Source: Polyangiaceae bacterium
Lineage (GTDB): Bacteria; Myxococcota_A; Polyangia; Polyangiales; Polyangiaceae
Direction: 5' to 3'
DNA length: 64,000 nucleotides
NCBI GenBank assembly: GCA_023150915.1
Contig: JAKLKA010000049.1
Span: 1 to 64,000, forward strand
Part shown: positions 24,505 through 35,110 of the stretch, piece after piece
Position numbering within the stretch: position 1 is the stretch's first letter
Layout of the letters: each line of letters opens with the position of its first letter
Translations under genes and position numbers: made by a program
The notes under the pieces: generated by a model
The model's input: only the letters and a program-made list of their open reading frames with translations
Database searches by the model: none
What the model was told of the DNA's origin: nothing

Positions 24505-25152
24505 ATGACGACCGCTGGCCGTCGAGCCAAGGCTCTGGGCGTGGCGTCCGGGCTCCACCTTGCGCGCGTGCGGTGCACTGGCTGCGGCGACTGCTGCCGG
24601 GGGCTGCGCGTTCCGGTCACCTTCGCGGATCTCGGTCGCCTGGTCGCGGCCACCGCACAGGCTCCGGGCGACCTGATCGAATGGGCGAGCCCCGAGCAGG
24701 TGGACGTCACCGGGGAGCCGAGCAGCCTGGTGCTGCTCGCGCCGGGGCGCCGCGTGATGCTGCTGCGCCACGCGGGCGGCGCATGTCGCTTTCTGGACGG
24801 CGAAGACCGCTGCCAGATCCACGCTGCCCGCCCCCGGGCATGCCGGGCCTACCCCTTGCACGCCACCTTCGGCGCGCGGGGCGGGCTGAAGCGGTTGCGC
24901 GTGCTGCGCGGTCTGGCCTGCCCGTTCGAGCTGAGCGCGGTTGTCGACTGGGTCGGCCTGCGGCGCGAGCACCAGGCGCTCGGCGCCGAGCTGGCAGCGC
25001 ACCACGCCGCCGTTGCTGCTTGGAATCGCATCCAAGAGCACCGGCGGCGTCTGGGCCGACCGCTGGGGTCGGAGGGCGAGCTGTGGGCTCGGGTGCTATC
25101 CGATCAGCCGCAGTTGTCCCAGCCGATCAGCGACATGCCGATGCAGCCGTGA
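24505..25152 (+). CDS. YkgJ-type Cys-cluster protein
   Basis: This 215-aa protein has the cysteine cluster of the YkgJ family (UPF0153): CTGCGDCC at about residues 27-34, CRFLDGEDRCQIHAARPRAC in the middle, and a final Cys in GLACPFE. This family probably binds a metal or Fe-S cluster; its function is not known. It starts at the ATG at 24505, divergent from the TM2 gene across 24 bases. The last 49 bases overlap the 3' end of the convergent lipoprotein gene, an unusually long convergent overlap. Confidence 0.82.
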   Translation: MTTAGRRAKALGVASGLHLARVRCTGCGDCCRGLRVPVTFADLGRLVAATAQAPGDLIEWASPEQVDVTGEPSSLVLLAPGRRVMLLRHAGGACRFLDGEDRCQIHAARPRACRAYPLHATFGARGGLKRLRVLRGLACPFELSAVVDWVGLRREHQALGAELAAHHAAVAAWNRIQEHRRRLGRPLGSEGELWARVLSDQPQLSQPISDMPMQP

Positions 25153-26006
25153 CCCGCGTCGGTGTACCAGCCTTCGCTCTTCGAGCCGACGGCGCTGCAC
25201 TTCACCTTCAGACCGGCGCAATCCGCCGCGCAGATCTTGGTGCCGTCGTCGTGGTACCAGCCTTCGTCGTTGGTGCCCGCGTTCTTGCACACCGGGGGCT
25301 TCGGCTTCGGCAGGCAGCACTGCACGCCGAGCTGACCGCCGCACGAGTACTCGGTGGCAGAACCGACCACGCCGTCCGCGCAGGTTCCCGGGTAGAGCGC
25401 GACGCACGAGCCGCCGCCGGCCTCACAGTCGTTTCCGGGCAGCGGGCTGCACTCCGAGAACGAACAGGTGTTGGCCTCGCACTGCCACTCGCCCGGGCAC
25501 TTGGGCTGGGGAATGTTCTGCAGCGTGCAGTCCGTGGGCTCGCCGCACCAGGCGTCCGCTGCCTGCTTCATCTCGAACCACGGCGTGGTGTCGACCAGGC
25601 GCAGGCTGAGCTTGCCGCCCGAGCTCAACTTGTATTCGTAGCGGGTGCCGTCGTCGAAGCGGATGAAGCGCTTGCTCGAGGTCGTCGACTTGGTGAGCTT
25701 GTACGTGCCGTCGAAGCCCACCGGGTCGCACGGGTAGGTCACACACTGGACCTGCTTCTCTGCGTGGTAGGTCTTGTCGGTCTTCAGGACGAGCAGGGTC
25801 AGGTCCTTCGAGCCCACGGTCGAAGGCTTGCTGAGCTCGTAGCTCCCGGTCGGCTTGCTCACGCCGTCCGCCTTGCCGTCGAGGTCGTCTTGATCGGCTT
25901 CCTCGACCGACCCGGTGTCGGGGCTGTCGGACTCGGCGCTCGAGCAGGCGACCGCCGGAAGAGCCATCAGTGCCAGAAAACCCAGGGCGAAACGGGATGC
26001 TTTCAT
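25104..26006 (-). CDS. lipoprotein with Cys-rich C-terminus, 300 aa
   Basis: The signal peptide RFALGFLALMALPAVAC ends in a lipobox with Cys21, followed by an acidic spacer (EEADQDDLDGKADG). Residues 50-150 form a beta-rich domain (YELSKPSTVGSKDLTLLVL, GTYKLTKSTTSSKRFIRFDD). The remainder is Cys-rich with paired motifs (CPGEWQCEANTC, CEAGGGSC, CGGQLGVQCC) and two NEGWY/SEGWYTD-like repeats (DEGWYHDDGTKIC, SEGWYTDAGHGC). It probably sits in the outer membrane as a cell-surface disulfide-bonded protein. Function unknown. Its 3' end overlaps the YkgJ-type gene by 49 bases. Confidence 0.75.
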   Translation of the reverse strand: MKASRFALGFLALMALPAVACSSAESDSPDTGSVEEADQDDLDGKADGVSKPTGSYELSKPSTVGSKDLTLLVLKTDKTYHAEKQVQCVTYPCDPVGFDGTYKLTKSTTSSKRFIRFDDGTRYEYKLSSGGKLSLRLVDTTPWFEMKQAADAWCGEPTDCTLQNIPQPKCPGEWQCEANTCSFSECSPLPGNDCEAGGGSCVALYPGTCADGVVGSATEYSCGGQLGVQCCLPKPKPPVCKNAGTNDEGWYHDDGTKICAADCAGLKVKCSAVGSKSEGWYTDAGHGCIGMSLIGWDNCG

Positions 26007-26775: not shown

Positions 26776-28128
26776 TCAGGGGTTGCTCTTCAGGACGCCG
26801 CGCACGATCTGAAACCCGATGCTCAGGGCCAGATCGGCGCCACCGGTCGGGTTCTTCGGGACGTCGCGGCTGACGCCGAGGTGGGTGTCTGCACCGCCAT
26901 CGGTGCTGCCCGCATCACCGCCGCCCACCCCCGCGTCCGTGGGCGCCGCGGGTCCGGGAGAGCCCTCGGCCGGCAGGTGGTTCTCGAGGTCCGACTCACG
27001 CACCACGCCGAACGTCTTGTCGGCCACGTAGGCGGCCTCGACCAGGACGTCGGGCTGCACCCCGCGCGCCTGGATGGCGCGGCCATTCGGCGTGTAATAC
27101 CGCATCGTGGTCAGCCGGAGACCCGCCTGGCCCGGCAGATCGATCAGCGTCTGCACCGAGCCCTTGCCGAAGGTCTTGGCGCCGACCACCGTGCCGCGCT
27201 TGTGGTCTTGAAGCGCGCCAGCCACCAGCTCGGCGGCGCTGGCGCTGTACTCGTTGACGAGCACCACCAGCGGGCCGCGACGCAGGGCGCCGCCCCGGCC
27301 GGCCTTCACCTCGTCCACCACGCGCTCGCGGTGCCGAGTGGTGAAGATCACGCCCTGGCTCAAGAACTCGTCGGCCACGGCGGCAGCTTCGTCCACCAGG
27401 CCGCCGGGGTTGTTGCGCAGGTCCAAGATGGTCCCGGCCAGCTCGCCGCCGTTCTGCTTGCGGAGCTTGGCGGCGGCTTCGAGCAGCTCGTCGTGGGTGC
27501 CGTTCTGGAATTGCTTCAGCCGCAGGTAGCCGATTCCGTCGTCGAGCAGCTTGTGCGCCACGCTGGCCACCTCGATCACTTCTCGGGTGAGCGTGAAGTG
27601 GAGGGGCGTCTCTTTGCCGGCGCGCTTGATGGTGAGAACGACCTTCGAGCCCGGCGCGCCACGCATGGCGCGGATCAAGTCGTCCGGGCTTCGGTCGCGC
27701 ACGCTCTTGTTGTCGATCGCCACGATGTGATCGCCCGATCGCACGCCGGCGCGCTCGGCCGGGGAGCCCTCGATGGGCGCAATGATCATCACGTAGTCGT
27801 CGCGGAAGTCGACCTCGACGCCCACGCCACCGAACTTGCCCTCGGTGTCGGACTGGAAGATCGACCAATCTTGGGGCGGCATGTACCCCGAGTGGGGGTC
27901 GAGCTCTGCCACCATGCCTTTGATGGCGCCCTCGACCAGCCGGCGGCGATCGACCGGCTCGACGTACTCGTTTTCGATGAGCACCAGCACGCGGCCGAGC
28001 TGCTCGAGCATTTCGTAGGGGCTCTCGCGGGCGGGGGTGGCCGTCGCCAGGTGGGCCGAGAGGGCGCCGCCAGCGAAGGCCGCCGCGGTGGTCAGCGCGA
28101 GGCGCAGGGACGGTCGGGGCACGGGCAT
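26776..28128 (-). CDS. C-terminal processing (S41) protease with PDZ
   Basis: This 450-aa protease has a signal-anchor N-terminus (LALTTAAAFAGGALSAHLA), a PDZ domain at about residues 90-180 (EGSPAERAGVRSGDHIVAID), and the S41 catalytic region: LDLRNNPGGLVDEA, the nucleophile Ser in EYSASAAELVAG, and the Lys of the Ser-Lys dyad in TFGKGSVQ. It would act in the periplasm on exported protein C-termini. The C-terminal 70 residues are a Gly/Asp-rich tail with a short helix. The ATG at 28128 gives a normal signal peptide; the longer frame upstream adds no recognisable sequence. It is convergent with the aldolase gene, with stops four bases apart. Confidence 0.93.
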   Translation of the reverse strand: MPVPRPSLRLALTTAAAFAGGALSAHLATATPARESPYEMLEQLGRVLVLIENEYVEPVDRRRLVEGAIKGMVAELDPHSGYMPPQDWSIFQSDTEGKFGGVGVEVDFRDDYVMIIAPIEGSPAERAGVRSGDHIVAIDNKSVRDRSPDDLIRAMRGAPGSKVVLTIKRAGKETPLHFTLTREVIEVASVAHKLLDDGIGYLRLKQFQNGTHDELLEAAAKLRKQNGGELAGTILDLRNNPGGLVDEAAAVADEFLSQGVIFTTRHRERVVDEVKAGRGGALRRGPLVVLVNEYSASAAELVAGALQDHKRGTVVGAKTFGKGSVQTLIDLPGQAGLRLTTMRYYTPNGRAIQARGVQPDVLVEAAYVADKTFGVVRESDLENHLPAEGSPGPAAPTDAGVGGGDAGSTDGGADTHLGVSRDVPKNPTGGADLALSIGFQIVRGVLKSNP

Positions 28129-28323
28129 GGCGCCGACAATAGTGCCGCTGCCCCTGAAAACACCCGGGCTGCCGGAAATTCTCCACGAGATCGACGCGCC
28201 GGCGCTCAAGCTCGTTGATTTCATTGGCCTGTGGGTGCTACTCCCCTAATGGGGCGTTTCTGGTGACACTCCCTTACCGGGCACCCGGCGCTCCGAGACG
28301 AACTTTCCCTACGAGGTCCGAGC

Positions 28324-28536
28324 GTGGCTGACGAAACCAAAGGCGGCAGCGACAAGCGCAAGCAAAGCCTCTACTTCCCCGAGGCGATGTTGCAGGAAAT
28401 CAAAGACGAGGCGGCGCGGCTCGACCGCTCGCTGTCGTGGGTCGTTCAGCGCGCCTGGAAGATGGCCCGCCTCGAGATCAAGAAGATCCCGAGTGTCAAC
28501 GACATCGGGGACGAAGAAGACGGCGACGCCGGCTGA
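28324..28536 (+). CDS. small ribbon-helix-helix protein (KQSLYFP type)
   Basis: This 70-aa protein has the core KQSLYFPEAMLQEIKDEA, then LDRSLSWVVQRAWKMAR, and an acidic tail. This is the pattern of a small family, restricted as far as I know to deltaproteobacteria/Myxococcota (TIGR04563-like), with a ribbon-helix-helix look: one beta strand and two helices, usually DNA-binding as a dimer. The GTG at 28324 follows GAGG. It overlaps the next gene by 44 bases, in a different frame, so translation of the two may be coupled. The target is unknown. Confidence 0.75.
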   Translation: MADETKGGSDKRKQSLYFPEAMLQEIKDEAARLDRSLSWVVQRAWKMARLEIKKIPSVNDIGDEEDGDAG

Positions 28537-29407
28537 GTCCGTACGCGAGTCCGTCGCGCACGGTTCCGACGGAACGCGCCTGTACGTGCGTCGGCGCACC
28601 GGTCCGTCCAGCACGACGCTGCTCTTGTCCGACGGCATCTGCTGCGACGGTTTCATCTACAAGTACCTGTGGGACGACCTGGCGCGCATGGCGTCGGTCG
28701 CGCACTGGAACTATCGGGGGCACGGCCGCAGCGCCAACCCGGCAGATCCGGAGCGAATCGGCGTCGATGCGCACGTCGCCGATCTGGATGTCGTACGGCG
28801 CGAGATCGGCGACCCGCCCGTGGTGCTGGTGGGGCACTCGTTCGGCACTCAGATCTCGCTCGAAGCCTATCGCCTGCGGCCCGAGGGGGTGCGCGGCATC
28901 GTGCTTCTGTGCGGGAGTTACGGGCGGGTCACGCACACCTTCAAGAACAGCGACGTCCTGGCCAACGTGCTGCCCAAGCTGTCCGAGCTCGCGACCAAGC
29001 ATCCGCGGCTGACCCGGGCGTTGTGGTCGCGGGTGCCCCCGAAGACCGCGCTTCGGGTGGCGCTGTTCACCGGCGAGATCGATCCGCGTACCGTGAATCC
29101 TTCGGACGTGGAGCCCTATTTCCACCACGTGGCCCACGTCGACTTCCCGATGTTCACCCGGATGCTGGCCGCCGCCGGCGAGCATTCCGCCGAAGACCTG
29201 CTCCCCTCGATCGACGTGCCGGTGCTGATTGTCGCCGGGGACCGCGACTCGTTCACGCCGCCGGATCTGTCGCGTCACATGGCAGAGACCCTGCCCAAGG
29301 CAGAGCTGGTCATGCTGACCGGCGGCACTCACGTCGCCCCGCTGGAACAGCACGAGCTGGTCGCGCTCCGCATCGAGAAGTTCCTCACCGATCACGGGCT
29401 GGCATGA
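28493..29407 (+). CDS. alpha/beta hydrolase, 304 aa
   Basis: The fold is an alpha/beta hydrolase: oxyanion region TLLLSDGICCDG, lipase-type elbow with nucleophile Ser in VLVGHSFGTQIS (residue about 118), the acid in AGDRDSFTP, and the catalytic His in LTGGTHVAPLEQ. The cap region is between. The start is a GTG 44 bases inside the preceding gene; the next in-frame GTG would delete the first beta strand. Likely substrates are esters or lactones, but none can be named. It overlaps the next lipoprotein start by four bases (ATGA). Confidence 0.88.
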   Translation: MSTTSGTKKTATPAESVRESVAHGSDGTRLYVRRRTGPSSTTLLLSDGICCDGFIYKYLWDDLARMASVAHWNYRGHGRSANPADPERIGVDAHVADLDVVRREIGDPPVVLVGHSFGTQISLEAYRLRPEGVRGIVLLCGSYGRVTHTFKNSDVLANVLPKLSELATKHPRLTRALWSRVPPKTALRVALFTGEIDPRTVNPSDVEPYFHHVAHVDFPMFTRMLAAAGEHSAEDLLPSIDVPVLIVAGDRDSFTPPDLSRHMAETLPKAELVMLTGGTHVAPLEQHELVALRIEKFLTDHGLA

Positions 29408-30405
29408 GGCTTCTGCTCGGCGCTGCTGCTGCTCTGCTGCTGTGCCTTGCGTGCCAGACCCCCACGGCGGGCCCGGGCCCAGGCAGCTCGGCGCCGGCCG
29501 CATCGTCCGCCTCACCGGCCGCGCCGCCCTCGGGGGCGGGCAGCGCCGCCGCACCGCCTCGCGCGTCGGCCGAGCCTCGCCCGGCAGGCGTCAGCGTCGA
29601 GACCGGCACGCTTGCGAAGCTCTCGTACGACAAGGGCGCCTGGGTCGGTGAGCTCGAACGCACGCCGCCGGCGCGCGTGTGGCTCACGCTGGCGACCAAG
29701 AAGCAACCCATGGCCGCTCGATCGCGCGCCGCCCACGCCCTCATCGCGGAACGCGTTGCCCCGGGCGTGGTGGCGCCCACGGCGCTGCGCGCGCTGACCG
29801 TCGCCGAAGTGAGCCGTGCCGCCGATTCGGCGACCCGCAAGCGTCTGGAGCGCGACGCGCGGGTGCTTGCCAACGGAACCGTGGAGGTGGCGCTGACGCT
29901 CTCGCCCGCCCCCTCGCTGACGCGCGTGGAGCTGACGGCCGTGGATCCGAGCGCGCCGGTGCAGGCTTGGGAGCGGCTGCTCGGCGCCCGCGAGCCCGTC
30001 CCCGAGGCTGCCGCCCAGGGGCTGGCTCAGTATCAGGGGCTCTTGGTGGCGGATCACGTCGCGGGCAACCTGGCGCGGGTGGGGGTGTATCGACACGACA
30101 AGTCGGGGCGCATCACCGCGGCCGACGGCAACGAGGCGTTTTCTCCGGCTCCCACCGAGGGCGCTCAGGACGACGCGCTCTCGCGCCTGTCGCGTCACAT
30201 GACGTACTCGAAATCGCTCGACGATCGGCTCTCGAAGCTGGAGCGCGAAGGGCTGGAGCGCGCCCTGGGCTTCGGCGAGCCACCGACGTTGCTGATCACG
30301 CCCAAGCAGCTCGAAGAGTGCCTGGACCGCGCCCGCAACGTCCGCCGACTGATCGCCGAACGCGTCAAGCAGCGCGGGGCCGACAAGGCGCTGGCCTTGC
30401 CCTGA
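29404..30405 (+). CDS. lipoprotein resembling a degenerate Fam20C/HipA-type kinase
   Basis: This 333-aa protein starts with a lipoprotein signal (LLLGAAAALLLCLAC, Cys17) and a Pro/Ala spacer. The remainder shows the order of motifs found in HipA/Fam20C/PI-kinase-like proteins: a Lys pair in VWLTLATKKQP (99-100), a helix with AAHALIAERVAPGVVAPTA, then DHVAGNLAR (Asp217, Asn222, Arg225) resembling the D...GN.DR catalytic loop, then TAADGNEAF (Asp241) resembling the metal-binding D-x-G, and a C-terminal helix TPKQLEECLDRARNVRRLI. The family assignment is my pattern reading, not proof, and activity may be lost. It is translationally coupled (ATGA) to the alpha/beta hydrolase upstream. Confidence 0.55.
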   Translation: MRLLLGAAAALLLCLACQTPTAGPGPGSSAPAASSASPAAPPSGAGSAAAPPRASAEPRPAGVSVETGTLAKLSYDKGAWVGELERTPPARVWLTLATKKQPMAARSRAAHALIAERVAPGVVAPTALRALTVAEVSRAADSATRKRLERDARVLANGTVEVALTLSPAPSLTRVELTAVDPSAPVQAWERLLGAREPVPEAAAQGLAQYQGLLVADHVAGNLARVGVYRHDKSGRITAADGNEAFSPAPTEGAQDDALSRLSRHMTYSKSLDDRLSKLEREGLERALGFGEPPTLLITPKQLEECLDRARNVRRLIAERVKQRGADKALALP

Positions 30406-31608
30406 TCACGGCTGCACGATCACCACCGCGTCGGGCTCGCGGTGCAAGAGCTTGCCGGTCTCACCCGGGCAACCCCAACACGTGCTGAAGTGCAGGCGCG
30501 GCCGGATGTACCCGCTGTAGGCGAACGCGACGGGCCCGGGCTCGTTCTTCATCACGAAGCTCGAGGCGAGGCGGTATTCGTTCTTTCCAGCCACGTGGAA
30601 GGCGACCACGAACGACGTGCTCTCGCCCGAGCGCGCGGCCACGAGCAGGTACTGCGCGCCCGCCACGGGGTTCCAGAGCAGCGGGGCGACGCTGAACGTG
30701 AACCCCTTCTTGTCCGCCGACCCGCGCTCGATCACCGCGTTCGCGCCGTCGGGATCGCGGAAGTACTTCACGTCTTTGGCCAGGCCGGCGGTCCGCGGGT
30801 CGGCCGCCAGCAGCTTCTGCAGCTCTTCCGCCGACAGCTTCGCGCGCTCGAAGGTCTGACCGAGGGTGGCCTCTTTGACCACGGCTGCGTTCGGCGGCCC
30901 GTGACAGCACCGAAAGCCCAGGTCGTCGCTGGTGGTTGCCGGGTCGACGCCGCTCCGGGCGGCGCAGCGGTGGTCGTGGGCGGGGGCCTTGGCGCCCGCG
31001 CCGCGGAGCGCCGCTCGCCTTGCGGCGTCCTTCTCCGTGGGCACCACGTCGCTGGCGGTCCATTCGCGCAGTGCGCCCATGGCCAGGGCGTCGAAGCCGG
31101 TGGCGCAGCCCTGCGGGGCTTCCGAGCAGCGCGGGTCCCACGCGGCCCCGGTCGCGTACGCATCACTTGCCGGGCCCTTGCAGGCGCGCTCCCACTCGAG
31201 CTCGGTGCACAGGCGGGCGTTCTTCTCGGCGCAGCGGCGACGGGCTTCATCGCGACTCACTCCGGTGAGCGGAGGCTTGCCCGGGTCGTTGGGGAACGGC
31301 AGCCGGTCGATCTCGAAGGGCCCGAGCTCCAGCGTGTGCAAGAGCGGCTCGAGCTCGGGACGCCGACCCGGATCTCCGGGCTGGCTGCCGGCGCTGAAGG
31401 TGCCGCCGGGGATCTTCACCCGGGCATCGGCCCGAGCCTCTTCTTTCGGCGGCTTGACCGATGCTGCGGCCGCGGGCGCGCTCGAGGGCGCCGGCGGTGG
31501 GGGGCCGCTGGCCGATGCCGCGCCGCCGGGGCTCTTGCCGCAGGCGACGCCCAGCGTCACCAGGGCAAATGCCGTGGCAGCAGGGCGGCACCGGGGGTAC
31601 ATCCTCAT
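30406..31608 (-). CDS. lipoprotein with formylglycine-generating-enzyme-like domain
   Basis: This 400-aa protein starts with a lipobox signal (ATAFALVTLGVAC). After a Pro/Ala linker come motifs of the FGE-sulfatase/SUMF1 fold: KIPGGTFSAGS, FEIDRLPFPN, GVSRDEARRRCAEKNARLCT, ELEWERACKG, EWTASD and DLGFRCC. The C-terminal half (about residues 235-400) is an extra beta-rich domain without a known family, ending HREPDAVVIVQP. Such domains can modify proteins or simply bind ligands. The copper-binding Cys pair of true FGE cannot be located with certainty. The start is the ATG at 31608 (alternative ATG at 31602). It is convergent with the preceding lipoprotein, with adjacent stops. Confidence 0.75.
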   Translation of the reverse strand: MRMYPRCRPAATAFALVTLGVACGKSPGGAASASGPPPPAPSSAPAAAASVKPPKEEARADARVKIPGGTFSAGSQPGDPGRRPELEPLLHTLELGPFEIDRLPFPNDPGKPPLTGVSRDEARRRCAEKNARLCTELEWERACKGPASDAYATGAAWDPRCSEAPQGCATGFDALAMGALREWTASDVVPTEKDAARRAALRGAGAKAPAHDHRCAARSGVDPATTSDDLGFRCCHGPPNAAVVKEATLGQTFERAKLSAEELQKLLAADPRTAGLAKDVKYFRDPDGANAVIERGSADKKGFTFSVAPLLWNPVAGAQYLLVAARSGESTSFVVAFHVAGKNEYRLASSFVMKNEPGPVAFAYSGYIRPRLHFSTCWGCPGETGKLLHREPDAVVIVQP

Positions 31609-31621
31609 GGCGGGTCGCGGT

Positions 31622-31637
31622 GACCTTGGCCAAGGTC
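31622..31637. promoter_or_regulatory. 16-bp perfect palindrome in a divergent promoter gap
   Basis: The sequence gaccttggccaaggtc is its own reverse complement. It sits 13 bases from the lipoprotein start (31608, minus strand) and 33 bases before the 85-aa protein start (31670, plus strand), a good position for an operator controlling divergent genes. No matching regulator is adjacent. Confidence 0.45.
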
Positions 31638-31669
31638 GCTGCCTTCCGCAAGCCCCTTTCCCCGGAGCC

Positions 31670-31927
31670 ATGACTCACCCACTTGCCCACCGCCTGGCAA
31701 CCCTCATGGACCGCGACCTCGAGGAGCTGCACGCCATCGTGGCCCAGTGGGTGGTCGAAACGAACGACGAGCTCGAACGCGCCCGCTATCGCGTGTTCGG
31801 ATCCGAGCTCGGGGCCGTTCAGCGCCGCATTTCGGCCCGCAGCTCGCCGCCCTCGCGCGAAGAGATCGAGATCGCGCTCACCGCCGTGCTTGCGCTCTCG
31901 GGGCGTCGAGCTCGGGGCCGGGCTTGA
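31670..31927 (+). CDS. hypothetical protein, 85 aa
   Basis: The ATG at 31670 has GGAG directly upstream. The product is a mostly helical, soluble protein (RDLEELHAIVAQWVVETNDELE, EEIEIALTAVLAL) with a basic C-terminus. No domain is recognised. Its stop overlaps the TTG start of the LarA-like gene (TTGA), so the two are probably coupled and may act together. Confidence 0.6.
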   Translation: MTHPLAHRLATLMDRDLEELHAIVAQWVVETNDELERARYRVFGSELGAVQRRISARSSPPSREEIEIALTAVLALSGRRARGRA

Positions 31928-33151: not shown

Positions 33152-35110
33152 ATGAGTGAGCAAAACGTCCGGATCACTGGACGAATCTTGTACCTGACCG
33201 AGGACGCGGAGCTGCTTGCCCGGCAGCTCGGGGGGGGGACCATCGATGACGGCGCGAAGCAAAAGCTGATCGACAACATCTCGACCGACGAGCTCACTCC
33301 GGGATGGGTTTGCTACTACTTCGACGAGACTCTGGCGCGCTATTGCCTGGTCGGGCTGCGCGGCGGCGTCATCGAGAAAGACTCGATCAAGAACGGTGGC
33401 TTTGGCGTGATCGTCAGCGGCCGTAGCAAGGGCTGCGGCTCGTCACGTGAGACCGCCCCTTACTCGGAGCTCAAGGCGGGGGTGCAGCTGGTCATCGCCG
33501 AGAACATCGAGAAGATCTACCGGCAGAATGCCCAGAACATCGGCCTGCTCACCTCGACCGACTTCACGTTGATCGACCGGATCGAGCGCGGCGAGACCAT
33601 CGCCATCTCGGAGTTCACCAAGGGGCTCGATCCGATCAGTGCGCAGATCGTCGAGTGCGGGGGGCTGTTTGCGTACAACCGCAAGCGCATGGCCGGCGAG
33701 ATCGCTCCGCCAGCGCTCGACACCCCCCGGCGCCCGATGAACCTGGCGGAGAAGATCATCGCTGCCCGCGCCATCGCCGACGCCCGCAGCGGCGTCTTGG
33801 GGGTCGCGTCGGTGCGCCCGGGCGACGCCCTCTTCGTGCGGACCGACGTGCGATTCAGCCACGAATACGTCACACCCATGGCCGAGTCGCTGTTCCGCGC
33901 GGGCTTTGGTGAGGGCGCCAAGGTGAGCGAGCCCGAGAGCGTCTTCACGTTCCGTGATCACCTGACCTTCTTGGACGTGGTGATGCCCGAGGCGCACAAG
34001 CAGATGGGGCTCGACGCCCAGGCGGCGTCGCTGGCGACCGTGCAAGAGTCGTTCAGCAAGAAGCACGGCATTCGCCTGTACGGCGAGGTGACCCGCGACG
34101 GCCGAACGGTGGGGAGCGAGGCCATCTGTCACAACAAGGTGATTGAAGAGCTGGCGCTCCCCGGGCAGGTCGTCGCCGGGACGGATTCGCACACCTGCAT
34201 GGGTGGCGCGCTCGGCTGTTTCGCGTTCGGCGTGGGTAGCACCGACATGGCCAACGCCTGGTTCACGCGCGACGTGCGGGTGAAAGTGCCCGAGACGGTG
34301 CGCTTCGTGCTCAGTGGCGAGCTGGGGCCGGGTGTGTGCGCCAAGGACGTGATGCTGCACATCTTGGCCATGGACCACTTCAAGACCGGGAAGGGCATCG
34401 GTCAGGTGCTCGAGTTCTCGGGCGAAGGCGTGAAGAAGATGTCGCTCGATGAGCGAGCCACGCTGACCAACATGGCGGTCGAGGCCGGAAGCTTCACCGG
34501 AATCATCGAGGCCGACGAGGTCGTCGTGGCCTATCTCACCGAGATGCGCGGCCTGCCTGCCGACGAGGTGCGGCAGCGGATCGTGCGCGCGGATCCCGAC
34601 GCCAGCTACGCTGCGAGCTTCGAGATCGACCTGGGAAAGGTGGTCTCGATGGTCGCGACCCCCGGCGACCCGCGCAACGGTGTGGCGCTCACCGACCTGG
34701 GCGAGGTGAAGATCCAGATCGCGTATGGCGGCTCGTGCACCGGCGGCAAGAAGGCCGACATGGACATGTACGCCGCAGTCCTCGAGCGCGCGCTCGCCCA
34801 GGGGCGCAAGGTGGCCGACGGCGTACAGCTGTACATCCAGTTCGGCTCGCAGCACATCCGGCAGTACGCCGAGCAGAAGGGCTACCTCGAGATCTTCCAG
34901 CGGGTCGGCGCGAACATCGTCGACCCGTCGTGCGGCGCCTGCATCCGTGCCGGCCCGGGCGTCTCGTTCCGACCCGACGAGGTCACGGTCAGCGCCATCA
35001 ACCGCAACTTCCCGGGGCGCAGCGGGCCGGGTCAGGTCTACCTGGCGAGCCCGTGGGTCGTCGCGGCCAGCGCCATTGCCGGCAAGATCGTCGCCCCCGA
35101 ACAAATCTGA
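33152..35110 (+). CDS. aconitase-family hydratase, swivel domain first
   Basis: This 652-aa protein has two parts. Residues about 1-180 form the LeuD-like swivel domain, with GRSKGCGSSRETAPYSE. Residues 200-652 form the LeuC-like catalytic domains, with TDSHTCMGGALGCFAFGVG, the cluster Cys in GGSCTGGKKADMD and in VDPSCGACIRAGPG, and the substrate-binding INRNFPGRSG. This domain order is the one of AcnB, but the N-terminal HEAT-like domain of AcnB is missing. It would carry a [4Fe-4S] cluster and interconvert a hydroxy-tricarboxylic acid with its unsaturated form (citrate/isocitrate or homologues). The RBS GGAGG is eleven bases upstream. The exact substrate cannot be read. Confidence 0.9.
   Translation: MSEQNVRITGRILYLTEDAELLARQLGGGTIDDGAKQKLIDNISTDELTPGWVCYYFDETLARYCLVGLRGGVIEKDSIKNGGFGVIVSGRSKGCGSSRETAPYSELKAGVQLVIAENIEKIYRQNAQNIGLLTSTDFTLIDRIERGETIAISEFTKGLDPISAQIVECGGLFAYNRKRMAGEIAPPALDTPRRPMNLAEKIIAARAIADARSGVLGVASVRPGDALFVRTDVRFSHEYVTPMAESLFRAGFGEGAKVSEPESVFTFRDHLTFLDVVMPEAHKQMGLDAQAASLATVQESFSKKHGIRLYGEVTRDGRTVGSEAICHNKVIEELALPGQVVAGTDSHTCMGGALGCFAFGVGSTDMANAWFTRDVRVKVPETVRFVLSGELGPGVCAKDVMLHILAMDHFKTGKGIGQVLEFSGEGVKKMSLDERATLTNMAVEAGSFTGIIEADEVVVAYLTEMRGLPADEVRQRIVRADPDASYAASFEIDLGKVVSMVATPGDPRNGVALTDLGEVKIQIAYGGSCTGGKKADMDMYAAVLERALAQGRKVADGVQLYIQFGSQHIRQYAEQKGYLEIFQRVGANIVDPSCGACIRAGPGVSFRPDEVTVSAINRNFPGRSGPGQVYLASPWVVAASAIAGKIVAPEQI

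Follow-up and report, generated by a model that had tools for sequence, protein, structure and literature searches.

Whether a lipid-anchored protein outside the cytoplasm is a working protein kinase is the question raised by the open reading frame at 29404..30405 (+ strand) of the window, by which we mean the whole 64,000-nucleotide stretch of Polyangiaceae DNA analysed here. In most accounts Fam20 kinases are secretory enzymes of animals, and Fam20C, the Golgi casein kinase of Pfam family PF06702, phosphorylates animal milk and tooth proteins. A preliminary description had read the frame as a secreted, kinase-like lipoprotein of Fam20C/HipA motif order, and inspection of the sequence recovered the frame, the lipobox and every motif quoted, namely TKKQP at residues 98-102, AAHALIAERV at 109-118, VAPTA at 123-127, DHVAGNLAR at 217-225 and ADGNEAF at 240-246. 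The analysis below leads us to regard the product, with considerable confidence, as a non-catalytic, lipid-anchored Fam20C-type pseudokinase whose activity was lost in place.

The gene encodes 333 aa plus a stop; its ATG start and the stop of the hydrolase gene that precedes it share the sequence ATGA, and its third-position G+C is 0.859 versus 0.868 and 0.872 of the neighbouring genes. The N-terminus of the protein, MRLLLGAAAALLLCLACQ, contains a signal peptide and the lipobox LACQ at residues 15-18, with Cys17 as the predicted lipidated residue (29404..29454, +), and is followed by a low-complexity Ala/Pro/Ser linker at residues 18-61 (29455..29586, +) and by the Fam20C-like pseudokinase domain at residues 62-333 (29587..30402, +). 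As judged from these sequence features, the protein is a predicted bacterial lipoprotein. The Cys column is occupied in 22 of the 25 members of its clade, a count that, like the other lipobox counts and gene spacings given below, is biased toward lipoboxes, because the start codons of the relatives were picked by a script favouring them.

Kinship to Fam20C through intact relatives

Searched alone, the window protein gave no match in Pfam up to an E-value of 10 (PF06702, HipA and CotH included) or among the chains of the PDB, while the NCBIfam search gave one sub-threshold domain match (0.12) and the viral contigs searched held no relatives. AlphaFold models computed on two-row alignments (the window protein and L002) had mean pLDDTs of 40.1 and 46.3 at full length and trimmed, respectively, too low for either model to be of use. 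By sequence match, relatives were found in 15 of 39 related genomes, its own included, and a complete kinase signature, defined as Lys or Arg, Glu, DR, GGN or GLN, and D..AF or D..GF, was present in six of them. Profiles were built from these six signature-complete relatives (A2), from 25 proteins without catalytic residues (A7), from 26 intact kinases belonging to the clade at this locus (A8) and from 14 intact paralogues (A9).

Matches to the animal family were obtained with the intact proteins. Profile A2 hit FAM20C (1.4e-14) and FAM20A (4.4e-14) in the PDB set, and against the PDB A8 hit FAM20C at 2.4e-9 and A9 hit human FAM20C at 4.4e-37. The Pfam Fam20C model, at E up to 1, matched all 14 A9 members, 6 of the 26 A8 members (best 0.00034) and 0 of the 25 members of the pseudokinase clade; one intact relative, L014, scored 39.1 bits against it at a cut-off of 26.8. 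When the window protein's own genome was searched with A2, the window frame was recovered at 1.7e-18, and contig C83 yielded an intact paralogue at 4.7e-39.

The step from intact to dead proteins was made by profile comparison, in which hhalign aligned A7 with A8 at 99.9% probability (E 1.5e-33, 248 columns) and A7 with A9 at 99.1%, with reversed controls at 0.1%. Profiles A8 and A2 each detected 25/25 A7 members and 0/25 reversed decoys, and A9, searched up to an E-value of 10, detected only 7 of the 25, with the window protein itself at 0.2. The A7 profile, made of pseudokinases alone, gave best PDB values of 0.84 and 1.9, and its members found no kinase in Pfam at a useful level. Since neither the window protein nor A7 alone matches any kinase usefully, it is the intact kinases that supply the connection to Fam20C, and by way of these intermediates the window protein is, on sequence grounds, homologous to Fam20C-type kinases over the kinase domain. 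A lipid-anchored, secreted relative of Fam20C, as the preliminary description had proposed, is therefore borne out by profiles with reversed controls as well as by a motif order and spacing that match the family.

Active-site residues and the two states of the locus

In Fam20C, the ion pair K285-E311, the catalytic D458, the metal-binding D478 and a Fam20-specific glutamate, E306, are described in PMC4421793, E306 being part of a loop peculiar to Fam20 proteins, and this numbering was placed on our columns by reading motifs in the A2-FAM20C alignment. The window protein carries Thr95 (29686..29688, +) at the position of the ATP-binding Lys (K285), Arg108 (29725..29727, +) at that of the alphaC Glu (E311) and Ala224 (30073..30075, +) at that of the catalytic Asp (D458), and at each of these three positions the catalytic residue is found in 0 of 25 clade members versus 26 of 26 intact kinases. 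The metal-binding loop is missing at 30076..30081 (+), where the kinases have about six extra residues, SGGN among them, after DR; the loop Asn occurs in 1/25 clade members versus 26/26 intact kinases. Asp241 (30124..30126, +), at the metal-binding position D478, is kept, and an Asp stands there in 18/25 versus 26/26. Lys99 and Lys100 of the window protein lie four and five residues past Thr95 and are not conserved in the clade, and the alignment around the Lys position may be off by a few residues.

The residues that both sets share are Cys17, D217, R225, A245, F246 and R309, conserved in 22-25 of the 25 clade members and 24-26 of the 26 intact kinases. Asp217 (30052..30054, +), named earlier as a residue to mutate, falls by the alignment in the FD(Y/F)L motif, on a conserved Asp without a catalytic role that is present in 25/25 pseudokinases and 26/26 kinases. 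The earlier picture of an intact kinase thus gives way at three catalytic positions and at the deleted loop, and it is from these residues that we infer the loss of activity.

The gene is flanked by an alpha/beta hydrolase gene upstream (28493..29407, +), with which it forms a conserved pair, by a convergent gene for an FGE-sulfatase-like (SUMF) protein (30406..31671, -) and, beyond the hydrolase, by a gene for a CtpA-type S41 peptidase (26776..28224, -). Comparison of 72 loci with flanks, 67 of them in the window's family, placed the hydrolase directly upstream in the window, in 22 of 23 other pseudokinase loci tested and in 24 of the 26 loci with an intact kinase, the loci lacking it there being L070, L095 and L096, and both the S41 peptidase and the FGE-sulfatase-like gene recur around loci of either kind. 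The residues aligned with the nucleophile Ser and with the His of the hydrolase are present in 47/47. The SUMF protein has a lipobox-like N-terminus (VACGKS) and lies beside the pseudokinase gene in relatives too. Elsewhere in the window, 25104-26006 encodes a Cys-rich putative lipoprotein without a Pfam match, and 33152-35110 a 652-aa member of the aconitase family whose Aconitase_C match (86-134) precedes the best Aconitase stretch (226-515).

The 26 intact hydrolase-linked kinases, which come from the window's own bacterial family, share with the window the order S41 peptidase-hydrolase-kinase, the lipobox and the domain, but unlike the window protein all 26 retain the Lys, the Glu, the two Asp and the Asn of the loop. 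The pseudokinase was found in 27 genomes and the intact hydrolase-linked kinase in 26, and both in none; these genome counts include the truncated pseudokinases L065 and L066, which were left out of the trees, and exclude weak matches (~1e-6 and weaker) mainly to the N-terminal low-complexity part, as well as one genuine-looking match in G108. The lipobox Cys is kept in 24 of the 26 intact kinases at this locus, so a lipid anchor, which had been thought unusual for want of ATP, is ordinary here, and the puzzle of ATP supply concerns the intact members rather than the dead window protein.

Ancestry, selection and competing readings

In a quick tree of 78 rows, the 25 pseudokinases formed one side of a branch with an SH-aLRT of 99. 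A tree of 61 rows, which comprised 20 of the 25 pseudokinases, 23 of the 26 hydrolase-linked kinases, 8 of the 14 paralogues and 10 outgroup rows, gave bootstrap/SH-aLRT supports of 100/100 for the 20 pseudokinases, 98/97 for the 23 hydrolase-linked kinases and 92/88, unstarred, for the group uniting both. Neither kinase tree used the columns of the catalytic residues and the loop, and the 61-row tree also omitted the long-branched L169 and L170. The hydrolase tree separated the same two groups, of 23 and 24, by one change with a support of 99. Among the matches listed, 60 loci of the order lying outside the family were sampled, and 58 of these keep Glu and the catalytic Asp; all 20 loci taken from elsewhere in the class keep Glu and both Asp. 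Because the outgroup loci nearly all keep the catalytic residues, the loss of catalysis is derived and happened once for the pseudokinase clade, the same losses defining one clade of 25 proteins within a single family of myxobacteria.

The other two of the 60 loci outside the window's family encode proteins that have also lost residues: L170 (G025) lacks Lys, Glu, the catalytic Asp and the metal Asp, and L169 (G127) lacks Lys, Glu and the loop Asn and keeps both Asp. Both look like cases of separate loss. A third type of intact kinase, in which a longer insertion separates DR from the Asn of the loop, was seen in two genomes, in L059 (G022) and L061 (G048).

Over the domain, dN/dS was 0.125-0.414 in 12 pseudokinase pairs versus 0.116-0.383 in 4 intact pairs, and the two paralogue pairs gave 0.12 and 0.238. 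Values of 0.12-0.41 show purifying selection that maintains the pseudokinase gene and argue that it works, and, together with the open frames, they lead us to reject a decaying pseudogene. As nearly all catalytic residues have been lost and yet the gene is under selection, the window protein is probably a non-catalytic binding protein. After export it would be lipidated at Cys17, the flexible linker would hold the pseudokinase domain in the envelope, and the kinase fold would now serve as a binding or scaffold module; most likely it would bind whichever envelope partner is phosphorylated by the intact orthologues at the locus.

A more specific role, and the alternative that survives best although we think it unlikely, is that of a Fam20A-like activator, in which the pseudokinase would bind and stimulate an active Fam20C-like lipoprotein kinase whose gene lies at another place in the same genome. 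Animals offer a precedent, Fam20A being described as an activator of Fam20C (PMC4421793, PMC5865150), and a candidate partner exists in the window protein's own genome, where the intact, lipobox-bearing paralogue L047 (C83:75884-76885) matches Pfam Fam20C at 6.6e-16, carries the motifs KEDDND and, at L047:4847-5989 of contig C83, is not hydrolase-linked. Of the 108 genomes of the family, 14 have a full-length member of this intact paralogue clade (A9), and 10 of the 14 carry the pseudokinase too (kinship ignored); no hydrolase-linked form was found in the other four, and the clade was found in none of the 26 genomes with an intact hydrolase-linked kinase. Against this, 17 of the 27 pseudokinase genomes had no A9 match at 1e-6, an absence that is uncertain because scoring covered the best 18 to 22 candidates of each genome and not every genome is complete. 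With 17 of 27 genomes lacking a detectable intact homologue, dependence of the Fam20A type is not a general rule, and an obligate activator finds no general support. It is for the window's genus that control of an active Fam20C-like lipoprotein kinase by a lipid-anchored pseudokinase, as an independent counterpart of the Fam20A-Fam20C pair, might be entertained, and we give it the same low credence; if true, it would be a kinase-pseudokinase pair outside the cytoplasm in bacteria.

Somewhat less probable still is that the protein remains an enzyme by another route, its altered pocket binding a nucleotide or other ligand and catalysing a different transfer. Other pseudokinase folds have proved to catalyse different reactions, SelO reportedly AMPylation and SidJ reportedly glutamylation, and both the constraint on the gene and the retention of Asp241 in the window protein and in 18 of 25 clade members would suit such an activity. 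In place of the lost Lys, Glu, catalytic Asp and loop, however, the clade shows many different replacements; 7/25 members have no metal Asp, and D217, R225 and R309 are the only polar residues that never vary. An active Fam20C/HipA-type kinase is very improbable: the motif order and Asp241 speak for it, but Thr95, Arg108 and Ala224 stand where Lys, Glu and Asp should be and the metal loop is gone, and in Fam20C a change at D478 or E306 alone is described as abolishing or greatly reducing activity (PMC4421793). A chance resemblance in an alanine-rich lipoprotein, to which one might turn because single-sequence searches give no match, can practically be dismissed given profile matches with reversed decoys at zero, synteny and a shared tree.

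Comparison with known kinase systems

One clade has lost catalysis in a single, clean event without leaving its locus, and its pseudokinases and their intact orthologues make a natural before/after comparison of a kinase fold without catalysis; the finding raises the question of where extracytoplasmic bacterial kinases obtain ATP. Fam20C-like proteins are common in one bacterial order, where profile A1 hit 82 of 96 genomes; this profile was built from intact and dead members together and picks up some weak N-terminal matches. Among the top entries of the open-access literature (subscription papers lying outside this scope), no bacterial Fam20-family lipoprotein or Fam20 pseudokinase was found; a kinome survey treats its FAM20 cluster as eukaryotic- or Metazoa-specific and has some bacterial families clustering with FAM20/CotH (PMC9758233).

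HipA and CotH, the former named with Fam20C in the preliminary description, proved more distant comparisons than Fam20C, 0 clade members matching either. HipA and HipA_2 share the same wider kinase fold; the Pfam HipA models matched neither the window protein (E up to 10) nor the clade (E up to 1), and HipA_2 weakly matched 3 of the 26 intact kinases, with a best value of 0.026. CotH is a spore-coat kinase and is active. It is described as a bacterial atypical kinase similar to Fam20C (PMC12189002), and its Pfam model likewise found no match in the window protein (E up to 10) or the 25-member clade (E up to 1).

Fam20C itself resembles the window protein in kinase domain layout, in export and in the FD..GN.(D)R and D..AF motifs, and profile matches to FAM20C are given by both the syntenic orthologues and the paralogue in the window protein's own genome. 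The window protein differs in lacking equivalents of K285, E311 and D458 and the metal-binding loop, and in being a predicted bacterial lipoprotein that itself has no PF06702 match. Fam20A, whose structure one paper reportedly treats, is alike in being an exported dead member of the family, and its active relative in the same genome has a putative counterpart in the intact paralogue, present in the window protein's own genome and in 10 of the 27 pseudokinase genomes in all. The two differ in what was given up: according to PMC4421793, Fam20A has the ion pair as well as D458 and D478 and is without the equivalent of E306 only, whereas the window protein has lost Lys, Glu, Asp and the loop together.
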